Shown in pieces: positions 24,311 through 36,203 of a stretch of 64,000 nt of DNA. Both the position numbers and the translations under genes were made by a program. The DNA lies in contig NZ_CP030265.1 in NCBI RefSeq assembly GCF_008843145.1, positions 2,590,001 to 2,654,000 of the forward strand, in the 5' to 3' direction. Numbering within the stretch: the first letter of the stretch is position 1; every line of letters starts with the position of its first letter. Under the pieces are notes generated by a model, which was not told the DNA's origin, did no database searches, and saw nothing but the letters and a program-made list of their open reading frames with translations. The stretch comes from Skermanella pratensis (lineage in GTDB: Bacteria; Pseudomonadota; Alphaproteobacteria; Azospirillales; Azospirillaceae).

Positions 24311-25738
24311 TCAGGGAGCGCCGTCCTCCGGATCGGTGCAGGAATGCTGGCGGCTGGACACGGTGATGCGGAAGTTTGTTCCGCGGGCTACCGGCAGGAT
24401 CTCCATCATGCCGCCGATCTGGCGCGTCAGCGCCGTGACGATGCGCATGCCCAAGGTCCGCGATTTGGCGGCATCGAAACCAGGGGGCAGTCCCGGTCCC
24501 TGATCGCTCACGGACAGCCCGTAGCCGTCCGCCCAGCATTCCAGCGAGACGCTGATGACGGCGGGATCGGTGCCGCGATGCTTGATCGCGTTGGTGATCA
24601 ACTCGTTCGTGATCAGGCCGAGTGGAGCGGCGTGATCGATGTTCACTTCCAGCGGATCGGCCGCGAGTTCGATGGTGCAGACGCGCTCGCCCGACGCCTG
24701 GACCAGATCGTCGCACATTTCCTGCAGGAAGGCCGCGAAGTCCAGGGTGCGGAACCTGTCGGCCTGGTAGAGGCGATGATGTACGCGGGCCACCGCGGAG
24801 ATCCGGTCGGATGCCTCCTTGAGCAGCGAGCGGGCGGACTTGTCGCTGAGACTCGCCATCTGGAGGTTCAGCAGCCCGGACACGAGCTGCAGGCTGTTCT
24901 TGACCCGGTGGTTGATCTCCCGGAGAAGCACCGTCTTGTCCGCCACGGCCTGTTCCAGGGCGTCCCGGACGCGCCGGCGTTCCGTCACGTCCCGCAGGAT
25001 GCCGGTCACGAAGTTCCGGTTCTCGCTCTGCCAGCGCGCCAGCGACAGTTCGAGGTTCAGCACCGCTCCGTCGTGCCGCCGTACCGTCAGTTCGACCGGA
25101 TGCGCCGAGGTCTCCTGAAGCGCCAGGGCATCCTGGTTGCGTGGCCAGGGGACATCCCCGCCGGGCGACAGCAGATGGGCGATGTCCTGTCCGACGGCGT
25201 CATGCGGGCCGAGGCCGAAGATGCGCTGGGCGGCCGAGTTCATCCATTGCAGCGTCCCCCCGGCATCGGTCGTGACGATGGCATCCTGCGCCGTGTCGAC
25301 GACCGCCCTGTACTGCGCGTCCCGCCTTTCGCGCAGCAGGCGTTCGCGCTCGACGGTCACCGTGACGTCCTTGACCTGGATCAGGCATTCCCGGCCGGCC
25401 GGGGATGGAAGAGGGCGGATGATAAGGTCGTGGAGCAGCGGCCGTCCGTCCGGCAGGTGCAGGGGAAGCAACTTGGCATGCAGCGAGTGGGTCAGGATGC
25501 TGGATGCCCCGGCCTGGAGCGCATCGTTGATCGCGTCGCCGAACCGCGTGTCGAGCAGCGCCGGAAACGCTTCCCAGATCGACCGCCCGACCAGCGTCGC
25601 CTGGGCAACGTCGGTGGCGCGCTCCATCCAGACGTTCCAGGTCACGACGCGATGATCCCCGCCCAGGATGATGATGCCGGAGTCGAGCGCATCCAGCACG
25701 AGGCTGCCGTGATGGAGGGAGTCGGACGACGGGCTCAT
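24311..25738 (-). CDS. PAS-PAS sensor histidine kinase of the HisKA_2 type
   Basis: 475 residues, no membrane segment. Two PAS domains (about 10-125 and 140-255, the second followed by the PAC-like GILRDVTERRR). The kinase part starts LLREINHRVKNSLQLVSG with phospho-acceptor H277, typical of HisKA_2. The ATPase domain has an N box LITNELITNAIKHRG, a G1 box SDQGPGLPPG and LGMRIVTALTRQIGG. It is soluble, so it likely senses a cytoplasmic cue. Its ATG overlaps the CheC stop (ATGA), making it the last gene of a receiver-CheC-kinase unit downstream of the chemosensory operon. The partner is probably the receiver protein at 26379-26762, by inference. Confidence 0.9.
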   Translation of the reverse strand: MSPSSDSLHHGSLVLDALDSGIIILGGDHRVVTWNVWMERATDVAQATLVGRSIWEAFPALLDTRFGDAINDALQAGASSILTHSLHAKLLPLHLPDGRPLLHDLIIRPLPSPAGRECLIQVKDVTVTVERERLLRERRDAQYRAVVDTAQDAIVTTDAGGTLQWMNSAAQRIFGLGPHDAVGQDIAHLLSPGGDVPWPRNQDALALQETSAHPVELTVRRHDGAVLNLELSLARWQSENRNFVTGILRDVTERRRVRDALEQAVADKTVLLREINHRVKNSLQLVSGLLNLQMASLSDKSARSLLKEASDRISAVARVHHRLYQADRFRTLDFAAFLQEMCDDLVQASGERVCTIELAADPLEVNIDHAAPLGLITNELITNAIKHRGTDPAVISVSLECWADGYGLSVSDQGPGLPPGFDAAKSRTLGMRIVTALTRQIGGMMEILPVARGTNFRITVSSRQHSCTDPEDGAP

Positions 25739-26382
25739 TCTTTGTCTTCAAGTCCGTCGATATAGTCGCCTATCAGCGACTTGATCGCGCTGAGCGACGG
25801 AAAATCCATGAAGAGGGCGATGTAGCCGTTGATGTTGCGGGCGCGCACGGCGAAGTCGATGGTCAGGAACATGACCATTTCGCCGGGGTCGTCCGCATCG
25901 GCGCCCAGCAGCACCACCTGGCTGCTGCCGCGCATCACGCGGGGCAGTGACATGTCGAGCGCCTGCTTGAGCATGTTGGCCATGACGACCAGGCACCCGT
26001 TCAGCACCACGTTGCCGACCTCGGCCAGCGCCTCCTGCTCCAGGTCCACGATCTCTTCGAGGGACAGCCCATCGTCCAGGATGGTGCGGACGAGCTCCAG
26101 GCTCTTCGCTTCCGGGAAGATCAGCAGGGCCTGGCCGGAAAAGGAGCCGCGGAAGTTCTGCCCGACGGCGATCAGGCTGCTGTTCTCCCGGTTCGAAAGC
26201 CAGCCGACGGCCTGGTCCCGACTCATGATCTCGGTGCGCGGAACGGACAGGTGGACCTGGTCCTTGACCATCCGGCCGAGGTTCTTGGCGGCCCGGCTGA
26301 CGCCGATATTGATGATCTCGGTCAGGGCATCGCGTTCCAGCTCGGTCAGCAGGAGTTTGCCGCCATCGTCGTCCTGCGTCAT
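25735..26382 (-). CDS. cheC: CheC-type phosphatase of receiver proteins
   Basis: 215 residues. Two repeats of the CheC active-site pattern are visible: ALTEIINIGVSRAAKNLG (about 18-35) and ALAEVGNVVLNGCLVVMANM (about 117-136), each with the conserved acidic residue, Glu and Asn spacing. CheC proteins dephosphorylate CheY-like receivers, here probably the receiver encoded just upstream. Alphaproteobacteria often use phosphate sinks instead, so a CheC here is worth noting. Both ends overlap neighbours by four bases. No CheD gene is seen. Confidence 0.85.
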   Translation of the reverse strand: MTQDDDGGKLLLTELERDALTEIINIGVSRAAKNLGRMVKDQVHLSVPRTEIMSRDQAVGWLSNRENSSLIAVGQNFRGSFSGQALLIFPEAKSLELVRTILDDGLSLEEIVDLEQEALAEVGNVVLNGCLVVMANMLKQALDMSLPRVMRGSSQVVLLGADADDPGEMVMFLTIDFAVRARNINGYIALFMDFPSLSAIKSLIGDYIDGLEDKE

Positions 26383-26762
26383 TTGCCTGCGCGCCTTAGC
26401 TTGAGGGCGGCTCCGGACAGGAAAGCGGCCAAACTTTCCTCGGTCAGCGGCTTCTCGACGAAGGCGGTGTCGAGTTCCCGCGCGCGGGCGAGGATCGCAT
26501 CCTGCGCATTGGCCGAAATGATCGCCATGGGCATGTCAGGGTTGGCGGCGCGCATTTCCTCGGCCAGGGACAGGCCGTCGCGATCCGGCATGTTGAAGTC
26601 GATCAGGGCGATATCGATACCTTTGTCGGCCAGCAGGCCGAGAGCTTCCTGCGCGCTGGCCGCTTCCACGATCTCCCAGTCCGATCGGGTCTTCTCGAGG
26701 ATGCGCTTGACGACCATACGGGCCAGCTTGCTGTCATCCACAACCAGTACGGTACGCGCCAT
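26379..26762 (-). CDS. Single-domain response regulator (CheY-like)
   Basis: 127 residues. The receiver pattern is complete: acidic pair VVDDS (D9-D10), phospho-acceptor D55 (ALIDFNMPDRDG), switch Ser near 84 (AIISANA) and Lys in VEKPLTE. There is no output domain. The start at 26762 (MARTVLVVDD) is better than the earlier in-frame ATG because the receiver fold begins there. It opens a second unit, receiver-cheC-kinase, after a 216-base gap from the main chemosensory operon. Confidence 0.9.
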   Translation of the reverse strand: MARTVLVVDDSKLARMVVKRILEKTRSDWEIVEAASAQEALGLLADKGIDIALIDFNMPDRDGLSLAEEMRAANPDMPMAIISANAQDAILARARELDTAFVEKPLTEESLAAFLSGAALKLRRAGK

Positions 26763-26978
26763 ACTCTCAAATCTCCAAACGTGCGTTCCAGCCCACCGCT
26801 CCGATCGCACACCCCTTCAGAGAGGGACCTGTCGTCCAATTCGACCTTAGCGTATCCTGGGCCGGCACATTGATAACAAATAATGCAACCCCGTCCGGCG
26901 GGATTCCAGATGAATGTGGCAGTGCAAATGAACTGCCTTCACATCCTTGTCAAGAGGAATGAATATTCCGTTTCAATG

Positions 26979-27212
26979 CTAATTTAGTGTCTGCAGTATC
27001 CACTTCTGAAGGAACTCCGAATCGGGAGAGCCGAGCATCTTCGGCCGGATGGCAACAAGCACCTGAAGCAAGGCGGTATGAAGATGCGTGCAGCCGGACC
27101 AGTCGACCCCGGCACCGGGATTCGCCAGCAGGAACTCCAGCAGCGGTTCGGCCTCATCGACCTGGCAATCGCCTTCCAGAACGATGATCCCGCCGGCGAC
27201 GCGGACGCTCAT
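26979..27212 (-). CDS. Small STAS-like protein at the end of the chemosensory operon
   Basis: 77 residues, with ATG overlapping the cheA stop (ATGA). The pattern VAGGIIVLEGDCQVDEAEPL, then GVDWSGCTHLHTALLQVLVA, looks like a short STAS/anti-anti-sigma or MlaB-like fold: a beta strand pair, then Asp-Trp-Ser at the position where STAS proteins have the D-S phosphorylation motif. It is shorter than most STAS domains. The function is inferred only from linkage to CheA; it might be a phosphorylated or scaffold component. No homologue name can be given with certainty. Confidence 0.65.
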   Translation of the reverse strand: MSVRVAGGIIVLEGDCQVDEAEPLLEFLLANPGAGVDWSGCTHLHTALLQVLVAIRPKMLGSPDSEFLQKWILQTLN

Positions 27213-29469
27213 GGCAGGATCTCCTTCAGGTTCAGGATCAGCAGGACCCGGCCGTCGCCCAGCAGGGTGGTCCCGAGATACGCCGGAATATCGGCCAGGA
27301 CGCCGTCCATCGGGCGGAGCACCATCTCGAGGCGCTCGCCGATCCCGTCGATCTCAAGGCCGAACACACCCCCGTCGGTCTCGATCACCAGCACCATCCT
27401 GCCTTCGGGGCGTGACGGGGCGTCATCACCCAGGTCCAGCAGACGGGCGAGGGAATGCAGCGGAACCACCTGGTCCCGCCACGCGAATGCCGTTTGCGCC
27501 TTGATCCGCTGAACGCGATCGTCGGGCAGCCGGATCGTTTCCGCGACACCGTCCAGCGGAACGCCGAACCGCCTCCCGCCCGCCTCGACCGTGACGATCC
27601 GCAGCAGCGCCAGGGTCAGCGGCAGTTCGAGCCGGATGGTCGTGCCGCGGTGGCGCGCGGTTTCCACGGCGATGCCGCCCCCGAGCCTTTCGATCGCCAT
27701 GCGGACCGCGAACATGCCCATGCCGCGCCCCGACAGGTCGGAGGTTTCGTCCGCCGTCGAGAGACCGGGAGTGAAGATCAGGCGGGTCGCCTCGGCATCC
27801 TCCATCGCCGCCAGATCCGCCTCGCCGATCACGTCGGCCTGCACCGCCTTGCGCCCGATCCCAGCGATATCGATGCCGCGCCCGTCGTCTCCGATTTCGA
27901 CCACGATCCGGTCGTTGGCGTGAAAGGCGCGCAGCGTCAGGGTGGCGCGATCCGGCTTGGCGTGGCGGCGGCGTTCCTCGGGCGACTCTATGCCGTGGTC
28001 CAGGCTGTTGCGGACCAGGTGCAGCAGCGGTTCGTAAAGCGCTTCGACCACCGTCTTGTCGGCGCTGGTTCCTTCACCCTCGATCACCAGGTCGACCGGC
28101 TTCCCGAGGCGAAGGGACAGGTCGCGGACGAACCGGGGGAACCGGTCGAAGACCTGGCCGACCGGCACCATCCTGATCCGCACCACGGCATCGTGCATAT
28201 CCCGCACCAGCCGGTCCATGGTGGCGTGAAGGTCCTGCAGCGGCCGGACGACGTCCCCGGACCCGGCCGGCCGTGCCGCCCGCCCGGCCAGCCACCCCAG
28301 CGAATTCTTCGCGACGATCATTTCCCCGACCAGGGCGAAGAGACGGTCGATGCGCGCCTCGTCGACCCGCAGCAGGCGCGATGAGGGGACGGGGACGGGG
28401 CGGGGGTATCCCGCTCGCGCGGGGCGGCCGGTTGCCGGGAGCGTATGGCAAGGTCCAGGGTCTCCGCCAGCGGGGCGCGGTCGTGCCGTTCCAGCGACCG
28501 GGCGAGCGCCGCCATGACGGCGTCCGCGAGATCCCCGCGGGACCCGTGGCGCAGCGCATTGGCGGCGGCGGCCGCCGCCGCCCCCCAGCGTCCCGGAACG
28601 TCGCCCGTCGGCGTCTCCGCGGAGAGCAGCCGCCGCTGCTCGGCCAGGACGGCGCCGACGATATCGGCGGGCGGCTGGGGGAAAGCGGGTTCGGCGCCGA
28701 GGGCATCGGGATCGACCGCAGTGATATGGACCTGGTCGGCGGCGAGGCGGAACGGATGCCGTATCGCCGCTTCCTCGCCCACGGCCAGTAGGTCGATCCG
28801 CAGGTTGCACAGGAAAGGGTCGAGCGCCTCCGGTGCCGGCCAGTCATCGCGCGGAGAGATGCGCAGGGCGGCCAGACCGGGCAGGCGGCCGACCAGCTTC
28901 AGCGGGTCCTCGCCATTGAAGAAGCAGCCGGGATCGGGATCGTAGACGATCCTGAAGGCGCCGGTCCCGGCAGCGCCCTGGCGGAGCAGGTCCAGGGCGG
29001 CGGACCGTTCGGCCTCGGTGAAGACCGCCAGGCCGTCCGAGGTCGAGCCGTCCGGGGCCAGGGCGGCCGGAGCCGCCGTGTCCGCTTCTCCCACGGCGCA
29101 CCGGCGCAGACGGTCGATCAGGTCCGATGCCGCCGCGTCCGCGTCCCCGGGCAGGGCGCCCTGCACCTCCAGCGACTCCAGCCACATGGCCGTCCGGTCG
29201 AGGCTCTCCAGCAGCAGGTCGATCAACTCCGGGTCGATCGCCGCGCGCCCGCCGCGGACGGCTGAGAGGATATCCTCCGCCGCATGCAGCATCCGGGTCA
29301 TTGCCGGGACATCGAAAACGCCGGACGATCCTTTCAGGGTGTGGAAGGCGCGGAACACCTGCGCGACCACGTCGCCGGTCGGCGCCCGTTCAAGCGCGAT
29401 CAATCCCCTCGTCGCCTCCTGGATCAGGTCGCGGCCTTCCGACAGGAACTGTTCGAGAAGTGCGCTCAT
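27209..29469 (-). CDS. cheA: Chemosensory histidine kinase CheA (frame disrupted by one base near 28400)
   Basis: About 753 residues when repaired. The Hpt domain has phospho-acceptor H43 (FRAFHTLKGSSG). A long middle part to about 330 has no clear CheY-binding P2 domain. A Pro-rich linker, then the dimerisation region (SSRLLRVDEARIDRLFALVG), ATPase domain (HLVRNSLDHGIESPEE, GDDGRGID, GRGMGMFAV) and C-terminal CheW-like domain (VEAGGRRFGVPLDGVAETIR). The N-terminal frame ends in nonsense at 28318 and the C-terminal frame takes over. Adding one C in the C runs between about 28385 and 28406 (minus strand) joins DTPAP to VPVPSSRLL. The 5' end overlaps the receiver gene (ATGA) and the 3' end overlaps the STAS-like gene. 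Most likely an intact gene with a base-call error. Confidence 0.85.
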
Positions 29470-29858
29470 GCCGGAACTCCGGTCAGCACGGCGACATGAA
29501 GGACGAGGTCGGCTGCGGCGACCGGCTTGACCAGATAGTAGTTCGCCCCGGCCGCCCGCGCATCCTCGGCGTCCTGCTCACCCGATTCGCTGGAGATCAC
29601 CAGCGCGGGGACGGCCGCCGCCGCACCGGTCTCGCCGCGCAGGTTCCGGAGGAACGACACGCCGTCCATCTTCGGCATGTTGATGTCCACGACCAGCAGG
29701 TCGAAAGGTTCGGACAGGACCTTTTCCATCGCCTCGATCCCGTTGAGCGCCTCGACCACCTCGAAGCCGGCGGCCTCCAGCGTCTCGCGATAGAAAAGGC
29801 GGATCAAGGCTCCATCGTCGACGACGAGAACGCGCGGCCGCGCGGGCCGATCAGGCAT
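29466..29858 (-). CDS. Single-domain response regulator in the chemosensory operon
   Basis: 130 residues. Receiver fold with acidic pair VVDDG (D14-D15), phospho-acceptor D58 (LLVVDINMPKMDG), Ser at the switch position (LVISSESG) and Lys in YLVKPVAA. There is no output domain, so it is the CheY-like output or phosphate sink of this CheA. The start at 29858 (MPDRPARPRV) lies inside the end of cheR (eight-base overlap). Placed between cheR and cheA. Confidence 0.9.
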   Translation of the reverse strand: MPDRPARPRVLVVDDGALIRLFYRETLEAAGFEVVEALNGIEAMEKVLSEPFDLLVVDINMPKMDGVSFLRNLRGETGAAAAVPALVISSESGEQDAEDARAAGANYYLVKPVAAADLVLHVAVLTGVPA

Positions 29859-30726
29859 GGCTGTCCTCCCAGGGCTTCTGGTACACGATGGCCTCCGGAA
29901 ACCGGCAGACATGGAACAGGGGCGATATCCGGCTCATGGATTCGGTATGGCCCAGGCAAATATAGCCGCCCGGCGCCAGGCAGTCGTAGAGATTGTTGGC
30001 GGCGGTACGGCGGGCCATGTCGTCGAAATAGATCAGCACGTTGCGGCAGAAGACCACGTCGATGTCGCGCCAGCGGCCGGTATCCGCCTGATCGATGATG
30101 TTGACCTGGCTGAACTGGACCGATCCCCGCAACGCCTCGTCGATGCGATACCGGCCGCCATCCATAGCCGTGAAATACTTGGCGACCAGAGGACGGGGCA
30201 GGCGCATCAGCGAGCGTTCCGAATAGACGCCGTCCTGCGCGGCATCCAGGGCCCTGACGTCGATGTCCGAGCCGATGATCTCGATATCCCAGGAGTCCAC
30301 ACGGGACCAGTTCTCCAGCAGCCAGATGGCGATGGAGTAGGGTTCCTCCCCGGTGGAGCAGGGGACCGACCACAGGCGGATCGGCTGGCCGCGGCGCTTT
30401 CGCGCCGTGATCCGGTCGAGCAGGTTGGAGGTCAGGCAGCGGAGCTGATAATCTTCCCGGTAGAAATAGGTCTCGTTGACCGTGAAGGCGGAGATCAGGC
30501 GCTCCAGTTCGTCCGGTTCGACCAGCAGGCGGGCGAAATGCTCGGAGAAGCTGCGCGAGCCGGCGGCGAGGATGCGGTCGGTCAGGCGGCGCTCCACATA
30601 GGCCCGCTGGGCATCGCTGAAGACGATGCCGGTCCGGCGGTAGAGGAAGTCGCGGAACCGCCTGAACTCATGGTCCGCGATCCGGATTTCGGTGCTGTCC
30701 GGCCGGTCCGGTTTGTCGGCGGGCAT
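29851..30726 (-). CDS. cheR: Chemoreceptor methyltransferase CheR
   Basis: 291 residues. N-terminal helical domain (FRRFRDFLYRRTGIVFSDAQ, about 22-41), then the SAM-binding motif LWSVPCSTGEEPYSIAIWLL (about 118-137), the IIGSDIDVRALDAA acidic loop and DVVFCRNVLIYFDD (about 225-238). It methylates receptor glutamates using S-adenosylmethionine, paired with the CheB encoded upstream. The open frame runs far upstream through the HEAT gene in another frame; the ATG at 30726 (MPADKPDRPDS) is the real start, five bases after the HEAT stop. Confidence 0.95.
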   Translation of the reverse strand: MPADKPDRPDSTEIRIADHEFRRFRDFLYRRTGIVFSDAQRAYVERRLTDRILAAGSRSFSEHFARLLVEPDELERLISAFTVNETYFYREDYQLRCLTSNLLDRITARKRRGQPIRLWSVPCSTGEEPYSIAIWLLENWSRVDSWDIEIIGSDIDVRALDAAQDGVYSERSLMRLPRPLVAKYFTAMDGGRYRIDEALRGSVQFSQVNIIDQADTGRWRDIDVVFCRNVLIYFDDMARRTAANNLYDCLAPGGYICLGHTESMSRISPLFHVCRFPEAIVYQKPWEDSHA

Positions 30727-30731
30727 GGCGA

Positions 30732-31343
30732 TCAGTTCTGCGCGCCCGTGATGCGCTTTACCGCGACGTCCGCCGCGAAACCCAAGACCTGCGTCGTCGG
30801 GAACCGCCGGGTCAGCCCGCGCAGCACCGGCACGGCGTCCGGAGTGCCTATCTCGGCCAGGATCTCGACGGCGGTGGTGCAGACGTTCACGTCGTTCTCC
30901 CGTTCCAGCAAGCCGCACAGCAGCGCCGTGGCCTCGCCGGCCGGAAGGCAGCGGGCGATCTCGGCGGACAGCAGGCGGACGTCGGCATCGCGGTCGGACA
31001 GCAGACCCGGCAGCAGGAGCCGCGCCGGGCCGGGCATGGTCTGCAGGGCTTCGATCGCGCCGTTGCGCAGCCCGGCATCCTGCGATCGCAGCAGCGATGC
31101 CAGCGGCCCGGCGGCGTCCGGAAGGGCGGCGAGGGCCGTGAGGATCGCCTCGCGCACGGCCGGCTCCCTTTCGGTTCGAAGCGCCGTCATCAGGGCAGCC
31201 ACGGCTTCCGGACCGTCGCCGAGCCTGCGGACCGCGCGCCTGCGGACCAGGGGATCGTCGCTCCGCAGGTCGTCGCGGGCCGCTCCGGGCGACCTGGAAT
31301 CTTCCCGCGCGGCGTCGGGCGGGCTGCCGCGGATCAGCGGCAT
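30732..31343 (-). CDS. HEAT-repeat protein of the chemosensory operon
   Basis: 203 residues made of repeated helical pairs of about 31 residues: DPLVRRRAVRRLGDGPEAVA, EPAVREAILTALAALPDAAG, DAGLRNGAIEALQTMPGPAR, DADVRLLSAEIARCLPAGEA and a final NVCTTAVEILAEIGTP. This is the HEAT/PBS-lyase-like repeat, a protein-binding scaffold. It overlaps the end of cheB by ten bases and precedes cheR, so it is an integral part of the operon. From memory, a HEAT-repeat protein also accompanies a non-motility chemosensory system of Myxococcus; I could not verify this. The partner is unknown: CheB, CheR or the receptor are candidates. Confidence 0.85.
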   Translation of the reverse strand: MPLIRGSPPDAAREDSRSPGAARDDLRSDDPLVRRRAVRRLGDGPEAVAALMTALRTEREPAVREAILTALAALPDAAGPLASLLRSQDAGLRNGAIEALQTMPGPARLLLPGLLSDRDADVRLLSAEIARCLPAGEATALLCGLLERENDVNVCTTAVEILAEIGTPDAVPVLRGLTRRFPTTQVLGFAADVAVKRITGAQN

Positions 31344-32455
31344 GTCGCCTCCCTGGTATGCGAGCAGGCCCGGGCAACGGCCCTGGCGACGGACTGCGCG
31401 ATATCCGGCAGCGGGGCGACGTCATCGGCGCCTCCGAGCCTGACCAGGGCGCCCGGCATTCCCCAGACCACCGCGGTGTCCTCGTCCTGGGCGATGGTCT
31501 GGCCGCCCTCCGCGCTCAGCCGCGCCATGGCGGCGGCGCCGTCGTCTCCCATGCCGGTGACCAGCACCCCGACCAGCAGTCCGGCGGGCACATGGTTGAG
31601 CGCGCTGGTCACCATCCGATCGACCGACGGGTGCCAACGGTGGGACGGCGAGGAGGGGACCGGCGTGGCGATCAGTCCGGCCGGCCGCCGGGCGACGATC
31701 AGGTCGGCGTCGCCCCGCGCGACATGGATATGGCCGGGCAGCAGGATCGTGGGCTGCCGGACTTCGGAGACGGGCAGGGGGCAGATCCGGTTCAGCCGCT
31801 GGGCGAAAGCCCCGGTGAAGCTGGCCGGCATGTGCTGAGCCACCAGCACCGGCCAGGGCAGGTCCTCGGGGAAGCCGGTCAGGATCGTTTCGAGAGCCTG
31901 CGGCCCGCCGGTCGAGGCGCCGATCAGGACGAGACCTGCCGTCGGGTCTGGTTGGTCGGCGCGGTGCCTTGCGGGCGGGGCGGCGGGCGCCGGCTGGTCC
32001 GGCGAAGCCGTCCGGCTCATCGCATGGCGGATCCGGTCGGCGAGCCGCAGCGTCGGCCGCAGCCGGGCGCCCGCCGCGGCCCGCACCTTTTCGACCAGCA
32101 TCGGCTGGATCCGGTCGATGCCCAGGGAAACCGTGCCTGCCGGCTTGGCGATCACGTCGACCGCGCCGAGCGCCAGCGCCTCCAGCGTGGTTTCGGCGCC
32201 CTCCGGCGTCTGCGACGACACGACGACGATCGGAAGCGGCGTCTCGACCATGAGGCGGCTGAGGCAGGTCAGTCCGTCCATCACCGGCATGTTGATGTCG
32301 AGCGTCGCGACGTGGGGAGCGAAGCTCCCGGCGAGAACCAGTGCCTCGGCGCCGTTCCGGGCCGTCCGGATCTCGAAATCGCCTTCCTGCTCGAAAATGC
32401 CGGCCAGGAGTTTCCGCATCAGCGCCGAATCGTCGATGATGAGCAGACGGATCAT
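31334..32455 (-). CDS. cheB: Chemoreceptor methylesterase/deamidase CheB
   Basis: 373 residues. An N-terminal receiver (D8-D9, phospho-acceptor D53 in TLDINMPVMDG, K104) is joined by a Pro/Ala-rich linker (about 148-172) to the methylesterase domain with catalytic S181 (IGASTGG), H208 (VAQHMPASF) and Asp in GMGDDGA (about 304-305). It removes methyl groups from receptors when phosphorylated by CheA. It follows the triple CheW gene with an ATGA overlap. Confidence 0.95.
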   Translation of the reverse strand: MIRLLIIDDSALMRKLLAGIFEQEGDFEIRTARNGAEALVLAGSFAPHVATLDINMPVMDGLTCLSRLMVETPLPIVVVSSQTPEGAETTLEALALGAVDVIAKPAGTVSLGIDRIQPMLVEKVRAAAGARLRPTLRLADRIRHAMSRTASPDQPAPAAPPARHRADQPDPTAGLVLIGASTGGPQALETILTGFPEDLPWPVLVAQHMPASFTGAFAQRLNRICPLPVSEVRQPTILLPGHIHVARGDADLIVARRPAGLIATPVPSSPSHRWHPSVDRMVTSALNHVPAGLLVGVLVTGMGDDGAAAMARLSAEGGQTIAQDEDTAVVWGMPGALVRLGGADDVAPLPDIAQSVARAVARACSHTREATCR

Positions 32456-34071
32456 GGCGGCGCGTCGGACGGCTGCCCGGGGAGTGCGGCCCCGGCGGAC
32501 GCCGCGCCGCCGAGCGTCGAGAGCTGGTCCGCCTCATGCCGGTCGAGCAGGTGCCCGGGGTCCAGCAGCAGGATCATCCGTCCGCCCATGTTGGCCACGC
32601 GGGAGATCAGCGCCATCTGCTCCGCGGAAAGATCGGGCGCCGGCTCGATCGCCCCGGCAGGTACCTTCAGGACGCCGGTCACCGCATCGACCAGGATGCC
32701 GGCGCGCGCCGCACCCATGGTCGCGACGACGATGCGCCGGCTGCGCGCCGGAACCGCCGCGGACAGGGCGAAGCGGCGCCGCTGGTCGATCACAGGCAGC
32801 ACGCTGCCCCGGTGGTTGATGACCCCCTCGATGAAGTCGGGAGCCTTCGGGACCGGGGTCAACTGATCCGGCACGCCCGCCACCTGTTCGACGCAGGACG
32901 AGGGAAGGCCGTATTCGGCATTGCCCAGCCGGAAGATCACGAAAGACTCCGTGACGGCCGCAGGGTAGGCCATGCCTTTCTCCAGGGTGTCGGGCAGGGT
33001 GTCGGGGTGCGGGTGATCGGAATGGGCGGCGAGGCCGCGCCGCGCCGCCTCCGACCGGAACAGGCGGTCGGGGTCGAGGATGGAGACAAGCCTGCGGCCC
33101 TGGTCGAGCCTGCAGATCGCCTCGATCTCCCCGGCATCCTGCCGGAACAGGGGGGGTATCGGATCGATCTGGCCGGCGGGCACGCGCAGGATCTCGCGGG
33201 CCCGGTCGACCAGGAGCCCGGCCCGCAGTCCGCCGAACGACAGGACGATGATCCTGGTCGCGCCGGCTTCTCCCCGCTCGGGGCGTGTAGGCCGCAGCCC
33301 CAGGAGCGTGCGCAGGTCGAACAGGGGGACGAGCCGTCCGCGCACCGTGACGACGCCCAGCAGGTGGCCGTCGGGGTGCGGCATGCGGGTCATCTTCGCC
33401 TGCGGGCGAATGATCTCGTCCACTGCGGACACCGGTACGGCATATTCCTCGCCGTCGGCCTCGAAGCTCACCAGCATGCGGGTGGCGCCCCCCGCCGTCT
33501 CCGATGCCCGTTCCGGAAGGGGATGCGCCCCGGCCGAGGCACCGGCCGCCGCGGTTCTGGAACCCACCGGCGAGGCGGGACGGGCGACGGCCGCGGAAAC
33601 CCGCCGCAGCACCCTTTCGAGCGCCAGGACCGAGATCGACGGCTGGTCTCCATTTCCCGGAACCATGCCGGAGAACAGGTCCAGCTCGTCGGTCTGGTCG
33701 GCCTGCTCGACCTGCCCGTGCGCCAGGGCGACGATGCCGGTGACCTGATCGACATGAAGCCCGACGCGCGCGCAGGCATCCAGGACGATGACACGCCCTC
33801 CGTCGCCCGCGGGTGACGCCGGCTGCCCCAGCATGCGCTGCATGTTGAGCAGGACGGTGACCGTGCCGCGCAGGTTGATCAGCCCCTCCACGGCCGGGGG
33901 ACTCAAAGGAACGTCCAGGACGTCCGGGCGGCGGACGATTTCCCGGATCTCCCGGAGCGGCAGGGCGGCGCTGAGGTCGCCGATGCGGAACACGAGGTGC
34001 TGCGGGCCGTCCCGGGTTTCCGGGGCCGCCGGTGCGGCTGCGAGCGCCTGTGCGGAGGAGAGCGGGGACAT
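32452..34071 (-). CDS. cheW: Triple-domain CheW adaptor
   Basis: 539 residues, about three times a normal CheW. Three CheW folds in tandem: about 22-165 (LVFRIGDLSAALPLREIREI, GLINLRGTVTVLLNM), about 197-345 (LVSFEADGEEYAVPVSAVDE, GVVTVRGRLVPLFDL) and about 372-525 (FVIFRLGNAEYGLPSSCVEQ, GVINHRGSVLPVIDQ). Linkers are Ala/Pro/Gly-rich. CheW couples receptors to CheA; a single chain with three copies would fix the adaptor stoichiometry within an array. It lies 20 bases after the receptor gene and overlaps cheB. It is a fusion, not a frame artefact, as the whole frame is continuous. Confidence 0.92.
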   Translation of the reverse strand: MSPLSSAQALAAAPAAPETRDGPQHLVFRIGDLSAALPLREIREIVRRPDVLDVPLSPPAVEGLINLRGTVTVLLNMQRMLGQPASPAGDGGRVIVLDACARVGLHVDQVTGIVALAHGQVEQADQTDELDLFSGMVPGNGDQPSISVLALERVLRRVSAAVARPASPVGSRTAAAGASAGAHPLPERASETAGGATRMLVSFEADGEEYAVPVSAVDEIIRPQAKMTRMPHPDGHLLGVVTVRGRLVPLFDLRTLLGLRPTRPERGEAGATRIIVLSFGGLRAGLLVDRAREILRVPAGQIDPIPPLFRQDAGEIEAICRLDQGRRLVSILDPDRLFRSEAARRGLAAHSDHPHPDTLPDTLEKGMAYPAAVTESFVIFRLGNAEYGLPSSCVEQVAGVPDQLTPVPKAPDFIEGVINHRGSVLPVIDQRRRFALSAAVPARSRRIVVATMGAARAGILVDAVTGVLKVPAGAIEPAPDLSAEQMALISRVANMGGRMILLLDPGHLLDRHEADQLSTLGGAASAGAALPGQPSDAPP

Positions 34072-34091: not shown

Positions 34092-36032
34092 TCAGCCGGC
34101 CGAGTTCTGGAGCTCGTCCGCGAGGGACGCCATCTCCTCGATCGCCGCCGCCAGATCCTCCGCTCCGCGCGCCTGCTGCCGGGATGCCGTCGCCGCCTGG
34201 GCGGTCGCCCTGCTGGCCTGCTCCGCCGCGGCCGCCACTTCCTGGGTGCCGAGCGAGGCCTGTTGCGCCGCCTGCAGGATCACGTCGGCATCCCGGAGTA
34301 TCGCTTCGTTGCTCTTCCGGACGGTCGCCATGTCGGCCTCGACCGCGCCGAACGTCGCGATGATGTCCCGGTTTTTCTGGACCTCGACCTCGTTCGCCGC
34401 CAGGGTCAGTTCGAGTTCGCGCCTGACCGCCAGGACCTGGTCCTGGATCGCGCGGACCGTATCCTTGATCCGGTCGCCGTTCTCGGCCGAATCACGGGCC
34501 AGGCTCCGGATGTCCGAGGATACAAGGGCGAAACCCCGTCCCGCGTCGCCGCTGCGCGCGGCTTCCACCGAGCCGCTGATGGCCAGCATGTTGGTCTGGA
34601 TCGACACCGTGTTGATGCCGTCCACGATCTTCTCGATCCGTCGGACAATCTGCTCCAGCAAACCGATGCGGGCGAGGCTGTCGCGGGTCCGGACGACGGC
34701 CTGCCCGACGCCGTCGATGAGCGAAGTGATGTTCCGACGCCCCTCGGCGAGTAGCGCCGACATGGCGGTCGACCGCTCCACCGCCCCGGCGGTGCTGGCG
34801 CGGGTGCGGCGTGTCGCCGCCTCGATCTGACGAAGCGCCGTGCTGGACTGATGGGTCGCGGCGGCCTGCTGTGCCGAGCCGCGGCCGATCTGGTCGACCG
34901 CCGTCATGATCTGGACGGCGGCTCCCGACAGTTCCTGGACGGTCGCGGACAGTTCCTCCGACGCCGACGCGACCTGCTCGGCGCTGCGGATCAGGTCGCT
35001 GGTCTGGCGCAGCTCTTCGGACAGCAGGGACAGTTCCTGGGCCGCGAGCTGGGCCTGCTCCAGGGCGAGGCTCTGCTCGGCCAAGCTGCGCAGGGACTCC
35101 TCCGTGGCGGCCGACTGTTCCTCGGCAGCCGCGGCGATCTGCTCGGCGCCGCGCTGGACCTCGACCGACGCGCGCTCGGCCTCCTGGGATGCGGCCACCA
35201 TGTCGAGGCTGTTCCCGGCGAGCTCGCCCATGTCGGCGCGAACCTGCTCGATGGTGGCGACCACCCTGGCGCCGTTCTCGACTTCGAGCATCGACATGTC
35301 GGCCGTCGCGGTAATCGCCGCCGCCAGGGCCCCGATCTCTTCCTGGATCGTCCCGACCAGATCTGTGATGTCCCGGGCGCTCCTCTCCGCGACCTCGGCG
35401 AGGGCCCGCACCTCGTCCGCCACCACCGCGAAGCCGTTCCCCGCCTGGCCGGCGCGGGCCGCCTCGATCGCCGCGTTGAGCGCCAGCAGGTCGGTCTGGT
35501 CGGCGATGTAGCCGACGGTGCGGACGACGGAGCCGATGCTGGACGCCAGCTCCTTCAACTCCTCGATCAGCGTGACGGTGGCGGTCTGGCGCCGGGCCGC
35601 CGCCGCGATGCCGCCTACCGAGGAGGTGATCTGCACGCCGGTCTCTCCCAGCAGCGCCTGCAGCGACTCGGTCTTCTGGCGCGACGCGGTCGCCATGGTG
35701 CGTGCGCTCGCCAGCAGCGTCGCGATGTTGCTGACAGCGGAAAGCGACTCCTGGGCGGCGCTGGACGCCTGCTGTGCGCCGCCCGCGATCTGCTCCATGC
35801 TGCGCCGCAGATCTTCCGCGGCCGAAGCGGCTTCGGTCGTGGAGGAGGCGATCTCGGAACTGGCGGCGGCGATCCGCTCCGCGATCTTCTGCTGGCGTGC
35901 ATAGGTCCGGGCGCGGGCCCGCTGCGGCGTCGCATGGGGAAGCGGCTGGGCCGTCCCGGCGCGGGCGGTCGCGTTATCCGCCTGGTCGGCGGGGCGCCTG
36001 TTGTCGAACGTCGATTTCTTGATAAGCGCCAT
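34092..36032 (-). CDS. Soluble chemoreceptor with two tandem signalling hairpins
   Basis: 646 residues from the ATG at 36032 ([13 protein letters not shown]). No membrane segment and no obvious sensor domain. It is almost entirely Ala/Glu/Gln-rich coiled coil and contains two separate hairpin-tip signatures: about 176-212 ([20 protein letters not shown], then [16 protein letters not shown]) and about 476-512 ([20 protein letters not shown], then [17 protein letters not shown]). The first tip is near the consensus; the second deviates (NMLAISGSV in place of NLLALNAAI). Each is flanked by helical arms that could carry methylation sites. No C-terminal pentapeptide for CheR tethering. It is the first gene of the operon, directly before the triple CheW. 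What it senses is unknown. Confidence 0.92.
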
Positions 36033-36203
36033 CGGAGAGCCCCTCGCTTCGGCAGGTCTGGCCTGGATCACCGTACCCTGAATCGCACCCTGTCAGGAAC
36101 CCGGTGCCAAGATAAAGTATCGCCCCTGCGCCGCAAGCGCTCTTTGTAGCGGTATTCCCATTGTTATTCAAAGTGGTACACGCCCGCGGACGGATCGCTC
36201 ATG

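Follow-up and report, generated by a model that had tools for sequence, protein, structure and literature searches.

What could a chemoreceptor that carries two signalling hairpins in one chain, with neither a membrane helix nor a sensor domain, be built to do? A gene of Skermanella pratensis raises this question, and we analysed it within a 64,000-nucleotide stretch of DNA (the window) and against the whole 5.87 Mb genome. The receptor is encoded on the minus strand, in 646 codons from an ATG at 36032, and the plus strand at this place does not encode it; an alternative GTG start at 36071 would add 13 codons. A genome-wide scan with the PF00015 profile returned two separate MCPsignal matches in the receptor, as the initial annotation had expected (2625121-2625582, 99 bits; 2624209-2624676, 70 bits; a single 666-codon frame), both over the curated cut-off of 34.6 bits, and no second gene with two PF00015 places in the 5.87 Mb. 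The supposed lack of a membrane helix and of a visible sensor domain was borne out, with a highest 19-residue Kyte-Doolittle mean of 1.36 compared to maxima of 2.6-2.7 in three MCPs of transmembrane type from this genome, and with MCPsignal the only domain detected by Pfam. Cysteine and tryptophan are absent from the receptor sequence.

The tip motifs begin at residues 193 and 493, an offset of 300 that matches the spacing first read from the translation. The two halves of the receptor align gap-free across 218 residues (30% identity, E = 5e-25) and self-identity has a sharp maximum at offset 300 (27%, elsewhere ≤17%), which indicates that the receptor arose by true tandem duplication.

The receptor is a DosM, which together with CheW3 makes up the defining pair of the F9 chemosensory class, and is of a kind already known, for which most work has been done on Vibrio cholerae. 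The signature of the class is DosM, with its tandem double signalling domains, plus an adaptor in which three CheW domains are concatenated (PMC9321776). In the window, tandem signalling domains in one chain, without membrane helix or sensory domain, adjoin a three-domain CheW, and genes for DosM, CheW3, CheB, CheR, CheY and CheA lie together and in order, with cheA split (Table 1); the assignment to F9 is drawn here from domain architecture, gene content and gene order. That the receptor heads an operon with a triplicated CheW was thus read correctly at the outset, the neighbouring gene (34071-32452) having three such domain stretches. The STAS-like protein had a tblastn match in 28 of 32 F9 loci and is apparently a constant F9 component. 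The HEAT gene between cheB and cheR is present in many F9 operons; in L062-type clusters from that family none was detected. An endonuclease V gene (PF04493; 36204-37049, minus strand) lies directly upstream of the operon.

Table 1 Features of the receptor and its operon, in window coordinates.
Feature	Position	Strand	Basis
DosM-type double-tipped soluble chemoreceptor, 646 aa	34092..36032	-	two PF00015 stretches; two-tip relatives beside CheW3
N-terminal peptide MALIKK, conserved; variable low-confidence tail behind	36015..36032	-	relatives and model
Tip 1 region, residues 175-234, canonical MCP tip	35331..35510	-	
Hinge joining the two hairpins, residues 343-347	34992..35006	-	model helix break 344-346; sole indel site among relatives
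Tip 2 region, residues 475-534, conserved variant tip	34431..34610	-	
CheW3, three CheW domains per chain	32452..34071	-	three PF01584 stretches
CheB	31334..32455	-	PF00072 and PF01339
HEAT-repeat protein of F9 operon	30732..31343	-	PF13646; annotated at same position in several named F9 clusters
CheR, stretch tested, start approximate	29851..30660	-	PF01739 and PF03705
CheY-like response regulator	29466..29912	-	PF00072
cheA 5' part, Hpt domain; frame broken near 28388-28390	28318..29469	-	PF01627
cheA 3' part, dimerisation, ATPase and CheW-like domains, other frame	27209..28390	-	PF02895, PF02518, PF01584
STAS-like protein, 77 aa, directly behind cheA	26979..27212	-	PF13466, E 4.9e-5, under curated cut-off
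Second CheY-like response regulator	26379..26810	-	PF00072
CheC/CheX-type CheY-P phosphatase	25735..26382	-	PF04509 and PF13690
PAS-PAS histidine kinase (HisKA_2), cluster end	24311..25738	-	

The pairing of a double tip with a multi-domain CheW, raised in the initial annotation, recurred in all 27 loci found by searching from CheW3, each with a two-tip receptor just upstream. Among 59 related genomes, the receptor stood immediately upstream of CheW3 and was followed by similar genes in 20 of 20 loci, the window's own excluded. CheW3 was present in 8 of 397 genomes sampled across the phylum, one of them the window's, and the other seven all had the upstream two-tip receptor; for comparison, F9 prevalence has been reported as about 2%. 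The double-tip gene was found at 38 loci including the window, from several families and classes, as well as in an Acidobacteriaceae MAG, while a regex search returned no two-tip frame in a Rhodoferax MAG (L086). Annotated clusters of Sphaerotilus, Methylosinus and Azospirillum (plasmids) had the same core gene order, and plasmid clusters of Agrobacterium and Novosphingobium were without an annotated HEAT gene and without a CheY preceding CheA.

DosM (VC1403) of Vibrio cholerae cluster I/F9 is likewise soluble, with two tandem MCP signalling domains and no sensor domain, and its cluster likewise includes a triple CheW, CheB, CheR, CheY and CheA. It belongs to another lineage and its array has been observed, while an array of the window receptor is predicted; tip 2 and the spacing were compared among other relatives, and V. 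cholerae DosM is likened by description. The F9 system Che2 of Rhodospirillum centenum, whose CheW is tripartite, governs flagella biosynthesis, and its mutants are hyperflagellated or without flagella and still chemotactic, with delta-mcp2 hyperflagellated (PMC2890560, PMC6943060). Its tripartite CheW, receptor MCP2 and two small extra proteins are as in the window cluster, but its CheA2 carries a fused receiver domain, whereas the window cheA is unfused and frameshifted. We infer that locus L058, from the same family as the window and with a receptor 55% identical to the window protein, is very probably this Che2 cluster; its gene order is as in the window. Azospirillum brasilense Che2 (F9, plasmid ABSP7_p2) also has the order DosM-CheW3-CheB-HEAT-CheR-RR-CheA-small protein, but there CheC and a response regulator precede the receptor, in contrast to their downstream position in the window. 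Soluble receptors of the TlpC and FrzCD type have a single hairpin and one signalling tip per chain, unlike the window receptor. R. sphaeroides TlpC and FrzCD share with it the lack of a membrane helix, and in the cytoplasm they form arrays or clusters (for R. sphaeroides, PMC3964821).

We assessed the distance between the tips in 38 distinct double-tip receptors, and found exactly 300 residues in 36, with 306 in L069 and 299 in L173. Indels between residues 45 and 640 occurred in these two receptors only, both at the hinge (at 347 in L173, and in L069 as six glycine-rich residues, DGRDGG, after window-equivalent residue 342). Since ordinary MCPs occur with several arm lengths, this spacing is strict. 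At a rise of 1.485 Å per residue, 300 residues compute to 44.6 nm from tip to tip. The same rule applied to two E. coli Tar fragments gives about 40 nm, compared to 31 nm measured between the baseplates of the sandwich formed by Tar cytoplasmic fragments (PMC3964821), an estimated inset of ~4.4 nm per end. Because this inset is subtracted at both ends, the baseplate distance predicted here by analogy is an estimated 36 nm or so, close to the 35 nm measured between baseplates of the cytoplasmic array of V. cholerae (PMC3964821), though the agreement fits a continuous rod and two opposed half-length rods equally and does not discriminate between them. The near-fixed length raises the question of whether tip spacing sets array thickness. 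Both the 300-residue spacing and the tip 2 variant described below are sharper here than in the F9 papers cited, and the original 2016 DosM paper may hold some of this.

The two tips are both conserved and differ from one another. Mean pairwise identity among 33 non-redundant proteins was 84% for tip 1, 73% for tip 2 and 42-45% for the arms. In relatives, tip 2 reads approximately QTxMLA[VI][SN]G[SA][VI]EAARxG...GFxVVSxDIRxLA, and M482, L483, A484, G487, E490, A491, R493, G495, G498, G500, F501, D507 and I508 are invariant in this set. The other displayed MCPs of the genome read LALNA, and tip 2 differs from them as it does from tip 1. The glutamate and arginine equivalent to the E385-R388 trimer ionic lock of Tsr (PMC8144572) are kept in both tips. 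In a tree, the second halves all clustered together (100/100) behind a long stem, and the DosM halves jointly stood apart from the MCPs of the genome, the sister relation of the two halves being provisional, as the comparison set was the MCPs of one genome. Because the second halves form a single group and the DosM halves stand apart, duplication and tip 2 divergence appear to have happened once, before these F9 receptors diversified, with both tips held since. The earlier reading of the second tip as diverged stands in so far as it differs from tip 1. Its conserved sequence of its own (MLA[VI][SN]G), separated from tip 1 once and ahead of that diversification, points to specialisation and not to degeneration.

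We consider it probable, with array, rod and output all taken from relatives, that the receptor is the DosM of an F9 system whose homodimers act as a rod between the two baseplates of a sandwich array in the cytoplasm. The chain links two complete MCP hairpins head to tail via the hinge, each hairpin having its adaptation region and arms of about 150 residues. The homodimers would most likely be rods whose tip 1 sits in one CheA/CheW3 baseplate and whose tip 2 sits in the baseplate facing it. Such a rod would scaffold a membrane-free, two-layer array and set its thickness, while sensory input would be brought by other soluble receptors, the methylation regions would be targets of CheR and CheB, and output would pass via CheA to the CheY proteins, with control of flagella or another cell function more likely than steering. 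The suggestion in the initial annotation of a cytoplasmic scaffold or an unusual array agrees with what has been shown already for V. cholerae DosM (PMC7534058, PMC9321776), a rod with one signalling domain per end that spans both baseplates (PMC7534058); the accompanying idea that one tip is structural is disfavoured by conservation. In cytoplasmic F9 arrays, double-tipped receptors are the key scaffold.

If the receptor were a plain spacer whose ends are equivalent, the conserved difference between the tips would have no explanation, which counts against the rod reading. We tentatively raise, as possible but on balance doubtful, that the tips are chemically distinct modules, such that the array faces are inequivalent or a folded-back chain has specialised 'subunits', and the receptor is more than, or something other than, a symmetric spacer. 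With all rods in one orientation, the array would have two unlike faces; otherwise both kinds of tip would occur in each baseplate. The presence of the asymmetry in every receptor makes it a testable question whether both array faces act differently.

In the folded-back arrangement, which we regard as unlikely, the chain would turn at the hinge so that its hairpins form an intramolecular four-helix bundle, a pseudo-dimer with both tips at the same end, and the tips would share the work of dimer subunits, one towards the trimer axis and the other towards CheA/CheW. An AlphaFold monomer (pLDDT 89, pTM 0.65; residues 1-31 of low confidence) had long helices at 35-193, 195-343 and 347-644, the last of the three passing through the second tip, and its second half matched the chemoreceptor structure 2ch7 (343-646, 304 residues, 2.4 Å). 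Because the best-scoring VIA alignments cover parts of both halves (e.g. 121-572), with topology read from the alignment ranges, the hairpins of the monomer model most likely lie next to each other, their tips at a shared end. This packing is what a folded-back chain predicts, yet single-chain AlphaFold models of natural dimers tend to substitute a second hairpin for the absent partner. Equal arms (~150 residues from tip 1 to hinge, ~148 from hinge to tip 2) would hold the tips level, and the conservation of one tip as a specialised variant also fits. The hinge as sole indel site can be read in its favour, although one would expect a turn to change its length more frequently than the 2 cases in 38 receptors. 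A model of the hinge fragment also matched antiparallel coiled coils, but it was poor (pLDDT 75, pTM 0.32, low confidence), and tomography of V. cholerae supports a rod across both baseplates (PMC7534058). TTYH channels and alpha pore-forming toxins, unrelated helical bundles, also ranked high, and we discarded these matches as reflecting generic packing of helices.

A dead tip and an artefact were also weighed. That tip 2 is functionless and kept as a passive end could be read from its long stem branch in the tree (2.11 changes per column) and from the changed equivalents of Tsr N381 and A382 (S/N and G), but its average identity far exceeds that of the arms and its 13 invariant residues are common to all 33 relatives, which indicates selection, not decay, and makes this explanation very improbable. 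The same conservation, little below that of tip 1, together with the retained ionic-lock residues, argues against the earlier proposal that one tip is merely structural. An artefact, either two receptor genes fused by chance in a single strain or a misassembly, gains some plausibility from the frameshift that does occur in cheA of the same operon, but has next to no likelihood; a recent origin of either sort is refuted by the recurrence of the double gene and its spacing at the 38 loci.

Nearly all DosM relatives open with MAL(V/I/K)K(K/T), followed by a variable tail of low confidence, and this N-terminal motif looks like a putative docking peptide conserved in sequence.

An intact CheA kinase was not found in the operon: cheA is one base shorter than in two congeners, within the C-rich, proline-rich linker from the Hpt to the dimerisation domain (~28388-28390), whereas it is a single uninterrupted frame in all relatives with the complete gene in view. 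The frameshift is either a genuine lesion or a sequencing error in the C-rich stretch, and because the local cheA is affected the operon may have a changed signalling output or none, which counts against the main reading. Across the genome there are three CheA-type dimerisation domains, and F9 sets without a CheA of their own exist (PMC9321776). Another MCP signal domain of the genome (L025, 1501-1809) is interrupted by TGA, with an open frame of just 130 aa, and is possibly a pseudogene or a second frameshift in the assembly. The genome also holds six flagellin-like genes, which is compatible with flagella biosynthesis as the output of the F9 operon.
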